The translations under genes were made by a program, and so were the position numbers. DNA of 45,642 bases from Chitinispirillia bacterium (GTDB lineage: Bacteria > Fibrobacterota > Chitinivibrionia > Chitinivibrionales > Chitinispirillaceae): assembly GCA_009786575.1 (NCBI GenBank), contig WQRV01000003.1:1-45642 (forward strand), written 5' to 3'. The notes under the pieces were generated by a model that saw only the letters and a program-made list of their open reading frames with translations, made no database searches and was not told the origin of the DNA. This document shows positions 19,454 through 22,883 of this stretch, piece after piece. Numbering within the stretch: the first letter of the stretch is position 1; the number at the start of each line of letters is the position of its first letter.

Positions 19454-19642
19454 ATGAACAAGATTATGCAGTATCTGAAAGATGTGAAGGCCGAGATGAT
19501 CAAGGTCAACTGGCCTACGCAGAAGGATGTGACCGCTGCCACGACTCTGGTCATCTGCCTGAGCATAGTAATGGCGGGATACATTTTTGCGTGCGATCAG
19601 GGCCTTCAGGCTGTGATGCGCTTATTTTTGGGGCGTCAGTAA
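19454..19642 (+). CDS. secE: Preprotein translocase subunit SecE
   Basis: YLKDVKAEMIKVNWPTQKDV plus one TM; between trnW and nusG. Confidence 0.92.
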   Translation: MNKIMQYLKDVKAEMIKVNWPTQKDVTAATTLVICLSIVMAGYIFACDQGLQAVMRLFLGRQ

Positions 19643-20196
19643 TGGCGGCGAGTGAGAAAAATGTAGAGCCAAAGTGGTATGTGGTGCATACCTATTCGGG
19701 CCAGGAGGCCAAGGTCTTCGACTATCTGAACGGCCTCGTCGAGTCCGGCGAGTACGGCGATCTGATAAAGTCGGTTCTCATGCCCACGCGCGACGTGGTG
19801 CAGGTGAAGAACGGCAAAAAGATCAAAACCACGCGCCGCGACTACCCGTCGTACGTACTCGTTGAGATGGCGCTCACGAAGGAGACCATGCACATCGTGA
19901 CCGACGCCGCGGGGGTCAGCGGGTTTGTAGGCGGCCAGAAGCCGCAGCCGATCCGCGAGGAGGAGGCGCGCAGGATTTTGGGCCAGGCGGCCGACAAGGG
20001 CGCGCGTTCGCAGATTTCGGAGGTGCCGTTTGAGATCGGTGATGCGGTTAAGATCAAGGAAGGCCCGTTCAAGGATTTCGACGGCGTGGTTGACAAGGTC
20101 TATCCCGAAAAGGGCAAGGTAAACGTGATGGTAAGCGTCTTCGGCAGGTCTACGCCGGTCGAAGTCGATTTCGTTCACGTTGCGCCTATAAGTTGA
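19642..20196 (+). CDS. nusG: Transcription termination/antitermination factor NusG
   Basis: KWYVVHTYSGQEAKVFDYL...GDAVKIKEGPFKDFDGVVDKV; TAATG overlap with secE. Confidence 0.95.
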   Translation: MAASEKNVEPKWYVVHTYSGQEAKVFDYLNGLVESGEYGDLIKSVLMPTRDVVQVKNGKKIKTTRRDYPSYVLVEMALTKETMHIVTDAAGVSGFVGGQKPQPIREEEARRILGQAADKGARSQISEVPFEIGDAVKIKEGPFKDFDGVVDKVYPEKGKVNVMVSVFGRSTPVEVDFVHVAPIS

Positions 20197-20213
20197 TAAT
20201 TGGGTTGGATGTT

Positions 20214-20321
20214 ACCGGTGTTGTCAAGGGCATCGGTTAATATAGATGGAAAGATCGTTGATGTTGTCAAGGGCATCAAATGATACGGAAATGGGCCGGT
20301 GGTGTTGGTGGCATCAACCGG
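20214..20321 (+). promoter_or_regulatory. Three tandem hairpins in the nusG-rplK spacer; first two share loop TTGTCAAGGG
   Basis: Stems 20214-20237, 20258-20279, 20296-20321 read by eye; 16-nt exact repeat TGTTGTCAAGGGCATC at 20219-20234 and 20262-20277. Confidence 0.7.
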
Positions 20322-20372
20322 TGCAGGTGATGTAACGGTGATATATTGAATGGTAAAAAAGGAGCATATAAA

Positions 20373-20795
20373 GTGGCTAAAAAGGTAGTAGGGCAGGTTA
20401 AATTGCAGATCAAGGGCGGTGCGGCGACGCCGGCTCCCCCTGTGGGGCCCGCGCTCGGTCAGCAGGGCGTCAATATAATGGAGTTTTGCAAAGCGTTCAA
20501 CGCCAAGACCAAAGATTCCGGCGGGATGACCATTCCTGTCATTATCACGGTCTATTCTGACCGCTCGTTCACTTTCATCACAAAGACGCCGCCAGCGGCT
20601 GTCCTCATAATGAAAGAGATCGGCAAAGACAAGGGTTCGGGCGTCCCAAACAAGGAGAAGGTCGGGTCTATGTCGAAGGAGCAGCTGAAGAAGATCGCCG
20701 AGATGAAGATGGCGGACCTCAATGCTGCAAGTGTAGAAGCGGCTATGAATATCATAGCCGGGACCGCCCGCAGCATGGGCGTTACCATAGATTAA
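20373..20795 (+). CDS. rplK: Ribosomal protein L11 (GTG start)
   Basis: [52 protein letters not shown] before 20373. Confidence 0.96.
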
Positions 20796-20814: not shown

Positions 20815-21510
20815 ATGAAGCACGGTAAGAAATACAATGCTGTTTACGCGAAGGTAGACAAACTTAAGGAGTACGGCGCGGCTGAGGCTATTGATTTTTT
20901 GAAAGCCAACTCGACGGTCAAGTTTGACGAGACGGTTGAAATTGCCATTCGTCTCGGCGTAGACCCACGGAAGAGCGATCAGGCTGTCCGCGGCGCAGCC
21001 GTATTGCCGCACGGTTTGGGCAAGACGGTACGCGTTCTCGTTTTCGCGCAGGGCGACAAAGAGGCCGAGGCGAAGGAAGCCGGGGCCGACTACACCGGCG
21101 CCGACGATATCGCCGAGAAGATTCAGGGCGGCTGGCTCGATTTCGACGCGGTCGTCGCGACGCCCGACATGATGAAGGTCGTCGGTAAGCTCGGTAAGAT
21201 CCTCGGTACCAGGGGCCTCATGCCTAACCCCAAAGTGGGCACGGTCACCCCGGATGTGGGCAAGGCGGTTCGTGAACTCAAAAAGGGTAAGGCAGAGTTC
21301 CGCGTAGACAAGGGCGCGATCATCCACGCCCCCATCGGCAAGCTCTCGTTCGACCCCCAGAAGCTGCTCGACAACGCCCGCGCCCTCATGGACGCGGTCG
21401 TCAAGGCCAAGCCGGCGACGGCTAAGGGCCAGTACCTGAAGAAGGTAACGCTTACGAGTACTATGGGCCAGGGGCTGAAGATCAACGCGAATGATTTGAA
21501 AGCGGTGTAA
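20815..21510 (+). CDS. rplA: Ribosomal protein L1
   Basis: [33 protein letters not shown]...[14 protein letters not shown]. Confidence 0.97.
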
Positions 21511-21616
21511 TTCTGAATTAATGCTCCTTGCCGTTTTGTTGACGCATAGTCATTAAGATATGTATCGGCCGGATGTGACAGGGTGCGGAATATAAACAAT
21601 AAGAAGGTGTGTGAAG

Positions 21617-22141: not shown

Positions 22142-22157
22142 TTTGCAAAGATGGTAC

Positions 22158-22241
22158 GATGATGATGCTTTGGATGTATCGTCATCAAAAAATAAAACAG
22201 GTTATACCGTGGTGATAAGTCAATAAAGATAATCATCGCGG
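22158..22241 (+). promoter_or_regulatory. Two hairpins in the rplJ-rplL spacer
   Basis: GATGATGATGC/GTATCGTCATC (11 bp with GU, 22158-22186) and CCGTGGTGAT/ATCATCGCGG (10 bp with GU, 22207-22241). Confidence 0.6.
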
Positions 22242-22287
22242 CAAAAACGAAACTATTAACAATTACAATAATTTATGGAGGTAAGTT

Positions 22288-22674: not shown

Positions 22675-22704
22675 CGCGTCGTGCGGTGGATGCCGCACAG
22701 TATC

Positions 22705-22770
22705 GAAAGACGGCACAGAATGCTTTGGTGACGAAGCGTTCTGTGTCTTTCGCCGTCTGTAACAGGCGGT
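22705..22770 (+). promoter_or_regulatory. Strong hairpins with mutually exclusive pairings in the rplL-rpoB spacer (attenuator or RNase III site candidate)
   Basis: GAAAGAC-ggc-ACAGAATGCTT...AAGCGTTCTGT-GTCTTTC; GCCGTCT can pair upstream (AGACGGC) or downstream (CAGGCGGT). Confidence 0.6.
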
Positions 22771-22883
22771 GCGGTAATGCTGAGTGATTAGACGCGCCAT
22801 TTGAGCGCAAGCGTGACGGTGAAAATCAATACCGTCCCGCATATAAACGGTGTCAGAGGCATCAACCAAAAAGGATCGTCTTA

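Follow-up and report, generated by a model that had tools for sequence, protein, structure and literature searches.

A loop-specific RNA hairpin of the L11-L1 operon in a Chitinispirillaceae genus and its candidate role as an operator

What might two hairpins with one and the same loop be doing between nusG and the genes of ribosomal proteins L11 and L1? The question is raised by contig WQRV01000003.1 of a Chitinispirillia bacterium (assembly GCA_009786575.1), of which a stretch of 45,642 nucleotides, here called the window, was analysed as a whole. The cluster in the window comprises tRNAs, tuf, tRNA-Trp, secE, nusG, rplK, rplA, rplJ, rplL, rpoB, rpoC, rpsL, rpsG, fusA and the S10 region, gene names being assigned by order and sequence. 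Relatives of its L11 belong to the Fibrobacterota, and the closest named genome is that of Chitinispirillum sp. CSBr16_98, with 85% L11 identity. We compared the locus with a genus set of eight genomes (G000-G007, where G000 is the genome of the window and G005 its sister genome) and with a phylum-wide set of 168 genomes. The features of the locus, all on the forward strand, are as follows.

19642-20196, + strand: nusG, the gene upstream of the spacer, with its stop codon at 20194-20196
20197-20372, + strand: nusG-rplK intergenic spacer of 176 nt, which carries the hairpins
20214-20237, + strand: hairpin 1, 7-bp stem ACCGGUG/CAUCGGU, loop UUGUCAAGGG (20221-20230); G005 counterpart, G005_B
20257-20280, + strand: hairpin 2, 6-bp stem UUGAUG/CAUCAA (20258-20279), same loop as hairpin 1; G005 counterpart, G005_A
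20296-20321, + strand: hairpin 3, CCGGU-GGUGUU-GGU-GGCAUC-A-ACCGG, with a different loop; matched once within the operon region of G005
20360-20364, + strand: Shine-Dalgarno AGGAG of rplK, about 8 nt 5' of the GTG start, read from the sequence
20373-20795, + strand: rplK (ribosomal protein L11), GTG start at 20373
20815-21510, + strand: rplA (ribosomal protein L1)

Hairpins of the nusG-rplK spacer

The first-pass annotation had placed here two hairpins with an identical 10-nt loop, and a re-reading of the sequence reproduced their coordinates and loop base for base. Hairpin 1 is made up of CCGGTG (20215-20220), the loop TTGTCAAGGG (20221-20230) and CATCGG (20231-20236), and is lengthened to 7 bp by an outer A-U pair (20214/20237); hairpin 2 is made up of TTGATG (20258-20263), the loop (20264-20273) and CATCAA (20274-20279). 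From one stem to the other two C-G pairs become U-A and one G-U becomes A-U with pairing preserved, exactly as had been claimed. The loop UUGUCAAGGG can close further through two U-G wobbles, which leaves a GUCAAG hexaloop. Local folding yields both hairpins, and when more of the surrounding sequence is included the stem probabilities are about 0.6-1.0; G005_A has a low probability of forming in its wider fold.

The window was scanned for pairs of hairpins with stems of at least 6 bp and identical loops of 6-12 nt, lying at most 200 nt apart. Hairpins 1 and 2 are the sole pair that the scan returned, and 60 dinucleotide shuffles of the window gave a mean of 0.05 such pairs, the loop always being shorter than 9 nt. 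The pair is well beyond chance expectation.

A third hairpin had been described downstream. It is present at 20296-20321 (CCGGT at 20296-20300, GGTG, TTGGTGG, CATC, a bulged A, and ACCGG ending at 20321), but its loop is different, which makes it a companion and not another copy of hairpins 1 and 2. The corresponding G005 hairpin is CCGGUGAUGCCGACGGCGUUAACAGGU (GAUGCC/GAC/GGCGUU), with a 3-nt loop and five pair changes, the upper stem being kept in all. Hairpin 3 comes after hairpin 2 (or G005_A) in both genomes, yet G000 has the overall order 1-2-3 and G005 has 2-3-1, indicating duplication and deletion inside the spacer.

Covariation and distribution of the hairpin

Across the eight genomes of the genus there are 46 occurrences of the loop TTGTCAAGGG. 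Stems of 5-7 bp flank six of these occurrences, all six lying in spacers around rplK on the sense strand and reading UUGUCAAGGG in the loop, whereas the remaining 40 have flanking stems of 0-2 bp. The genome of the window carries two copies between nusG and rplK, 43 nt apart; G005 carries two there, 89 nt apart, and one between rplK and rplA; G002 carries one between rplK and rplA. The rplK-rplA spacer of the window, 19 nt long, is without the hairpin that G005 and G002 have at this place.

The six 24-nt hairpins align free of gaps. Nine pairs were aligned, six of them variable and each of the six with two-sided changes, and 94% of the cells are paired. The covariation score was 0.637 compared with 0.271 in shuffles (0 of 500 as high), slid registers all scoring far worse, and kinship limits the independence of the copies, the six amounting to some three independent stem types. 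G002 is decisive, in that a stem unlike GAUG/CAUC, namely UUAGCGA/UCGCUGA, bears the identical loop. A lower helix extending the stem was not accepted into the motif, since only G005_C and G002 (two of the six copies) gave it support in flank shuffles.

As the first-pass annotation had proposed, relatives were searched with a covariance model. Over the 168 phylum genomes the six copies ranked 1 to 6, at 32-36 bits, and no operon copy beyond these six was found. The seventh-ranked match (28.5 bits) lies within a coding-length open frame, as do all seven further family-level matches (G005:C110 among them), which fall on either strand. The ten top-ranked matches of a literature search with the loop sequence itself were all unrelated and eukaryotic.

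The reading that had been offered, in which selection maintains an RNA shape that has a defined loop, is supported by the unrelated stem of G002, by the two-sided pair changes and by the confinement of stem-flanked copies to the L11-L1 operon. The element is a loop-specific RNA hairpin tied to this operon, with a narrow range, and its six copies in three genomes have what marks a ribosomal-protein leader RNA, a covarying structure 5' of r-protein genes.

The nusG-rplK spacer measures 176 nt here and 206 nt in G005, against 25-26 nt in each of G003, G006 and G007; most other relatives have one of 16-40 nt. Longer but unrelated spacers occur in G002, G010 and G019 and in two genomes of one other family (L023, L024). 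G003, G006 and G007 have the operon without the hairpin, so the element is dispensable, and it is absent from the one assembled spacer of G004. The annotation would have given up its reading had the spacer been unconserved or the repeat a recent duplication without covariation. The first half of this applies, in that most relatives have a short spacer without hairpins; the second does not, since neither a covariation-less recent duplication nor a dispersed repeat was found. A dispersed repeat or MITE (REP-like), which the spacer lengths had first suggested, was rejected on the finding that stem-flanked copies are restricted to L11-operon spacers in the eight genomes. In a NusG-L11-L1 tree G002, G000 with G005, and G003 with G006 and G007 form a three-way polytomy, so that the hairpin may have been gained once and lost once, or transferred.

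Elements of other kinds occupy further spacers of the operon. Between rplK and rplA, G003, G006 and G007 (L162-L164) have a conserved GAUUAUC-R-GUCC...GGAYGRGGUGGUACC directly 5' of rplA, which would pair across the Shine-Dalgarno region and may be an alternative operator of that sister clade. The same spacer of G010 and G019 (L166, L167) has GGGGAG-stem-GCAGACCC just before rplA, which we take to resemble a classical L1 rRNA-type site. The rplA-rplJ spacer (21511-21616) is 106 nt long, is similar in G005 (GCUCYUUGCCGUUUUGU...GGCCGGAUGUGACAGGGUGCG) and is likely an L10 leader diverged beyond Rfam detection. The rplJ-rplL spacer (22142-22287) forms a hairpin GAUGAUGAUGC/GUAUCGUCAUC, of which G005 keeps the stem with a different loop. 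The rplL-rpoB spacer (22675-22883) forms a long hairpin GGCACAGAAUGC...GCGUUCUGUGUC, possibly a processing or attenuation site; in the genus, Chitinispirillum and AS06 the hairpin of this spacer has GRCACAR/YUGUGUC-like ends and changing arms.

A candidate operator and its alternatives

In other bacteria L1 represses rplK-rplA through a site that resembles its 23S site (PMC10931766). That site lies before rplK in Proteobacteria, before rplA in Actinobacteria and Cyanobacteria, and at both places in Firmicutes, T. thermophilus and T. maritima (PMC10931766). The hairpins described here occupy the positions of a uL1 operator, the rplK leader or the stretch directly 5' of rplA. Their position, multiplicity and restriction to the operon fit a feedback operator with L1 as the first candidate. 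We therefore tentatively favour, at a probability of roughly 0.45, the reading that they serve the L11-L1 part of the operon as a cis-acting RNA operator, peculiar to the genus and acting in feedback, most probably via L1. An RNA-level function and negative feedback both appear likely, and L1 would be the likeliest ligand. The loop is probably the recognised part, because it is kept while the stem varies, the opposite of the hairpins between rplJ and rplL and between rplL and rpoB.

Under the operator reading the stem would merely present the loop UUGUCAAGGG (or only its core, GUCAAG, once the two U-G pairs have formed) to a trans-acting factor, likeliest an operon product that serves as feedback repressor, most probably L1. 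Any L1 in excess of free 23S rRNA would attach to at least one of the hairpins between nusG and rplK, in the relatives also to the one between rplK and rplA, and translation of rplK-rplA would be lowered.

The loop had been said to match no recognised L1 site, and we concur: the 23S L1 stalk (H76-H78) has no loop-like segment on its sense strand, the only strong match being antisense, and by eye the L1 internal-loop motif revealed no mimicry either. A shape unlike the known L1 mimic requires another mode of recognition or another ligand. Such a ligand (NusG, L11, L10-L12, a CsrA-like regulator or an sRNA) would adjust translation or transcription of the downstream genes, a reading that we regard as rather unlikely but that the covariation evidence supports equally. 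Several same-loop hairpins per leader are also typical of CsrA-type or phage put-type sites, and CAAGG in the loop partly fits the CsrA consensus. However, CsrA needs GGA where the loop has GGG, and a global regulator should act at other genes, while the eight genus genomes hold no other stem-flanked copy.

Processing or stability elements at which the mRNA is cut between nusG and rplK, setting the ratio of the products, are improbable. Processing sites should have persisting stems, as do the hairpins of the rplJ-rplL and rplL-rpoB spacers; there, however, the loop varies on a kept stem, and the reverse arrangement here points to recognition of the loop. Stems of 6-7 bp are, moreover, short for RNase III.

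We give slightly less credit to a pairing of UGUCAAGG in the hairpin with 23S rRNA, through which the leader would sense rRNA still without L1 or would tether L1 and rRNA to each other. CCUUGACA, on the strand of the L1 stalk that L1 binds (about 2380-2387 in the 23S of the same-family genome G012, L218), is exactly complementary to UGUCAAGG. No Watson-Crick match in the same-family 23S is better than these 8 nt (9 with G-U), and the stalk reads CCUUGACAUACCACC in all four order members where it was found and UUGAAAUACC in Fibrobacteraceae; an RNA target would also account for a fixed loop on variable stems. Against this, 9% of shuffled loops also reach 8 nt somewhere in 23S and the L1 stalk was singled out post hoc, and for these two reasons the complementarity is to be taken as a lead only. 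The 23S compared is that of family and order relatives, that of the hairpin-bearing genus not being assembled; the rRNA strand is itself structured and, in ribosomes, lies under L1; and we know of no precedent for such a pairing between a leader loop and 23S. That the loop pairs with the L1-binding strand (CCUUGACA) and thereby couples L11-L1 synthesis to L1-free rRNA, with or without L1 protein, seems to us very unlikely.

Chance or drift, that is, a small locally duplicated palindrome without function in a growing spacer, is strongly disfavoured: spacer lengths in the genus vary widely, with unrelated long inserts in G002, G010 and G019, and the differing hairpin order of G000 and G005 shows that the spacer duplicates and deletes, but the 10-nt loop is unchanged across species, once on a wholly different stem, such hairpins are found nowhere else, and pairing is kept by two-sided changes.

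Other candidates were set aside. A repeated peptide or small ORF was rejected, since neither 43 nor 89 nt, the distances between hairpins, is divisible by three. A DNA operator is unlikely, because G002 has entirely different half-sites (the stem) around the unchanged middle, and because every copy points the same way. For a promoter with TTGTCA as -35, inspection by eye gave no consistent -10 at the usual spacing. An L11 mimic of H43-H44 would share only GAUGUUG with the rRNA, and the closing pairs do not fit an anticodon-like loop UUGUCAA (Asp GUC).

Comparison with known leader elements

The favoured L1 operator shares with known L1 (uL1) operators the operon, the positions and a stem-loop in intergenic or leader RNA. 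Known L1 sites are mimics of the 23S site, with an irregular stem and an internal bulge (PMC10931766). In the hairpins described here the conservation lies instead in the terminal loop, the stem beneath it being variable, and a spacer has at most two copies in tandem. Rfam, searched at E up to 5, gave no family at gathering score in the nusG-rplK spacer and only tRNAs in the window, together with one chance snoRNA match inside the spacer (E 0.8). The L10 leader of rplJ-rplL (RF00557) is comparable as an r-protein leader in the adjoining part of the operon, but differs in that the nusG-rplK spacer does not match it at gathering score. L10 reads a kink-turn. CsrA/RsmA sites resemble the hairpins in their number per leader and in a purine-rich loop motif, whereas here GGA is missing from the loop in all six copies and the hairpins are confined to one operon.

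A further likeness is to lineage-specific ribosomal leaders, small covarying structures 5' of r-protein genes in narrow taxa (e.g. PMC7247131, whose main text makes no mention of L11, rplK, rplA or Fibrobacter). Feedback leaders of r-proteins arise anew in many lineages, each showing different RNA shapes under the same control. At this locus the usual layout is inverted, with a fixed loop, a free stem and several copies, at a place where L1 control is expected and without the known L1 mimic, and the hairpin is a compact RNA that lends itself to tests, from a phylum that has received little study.
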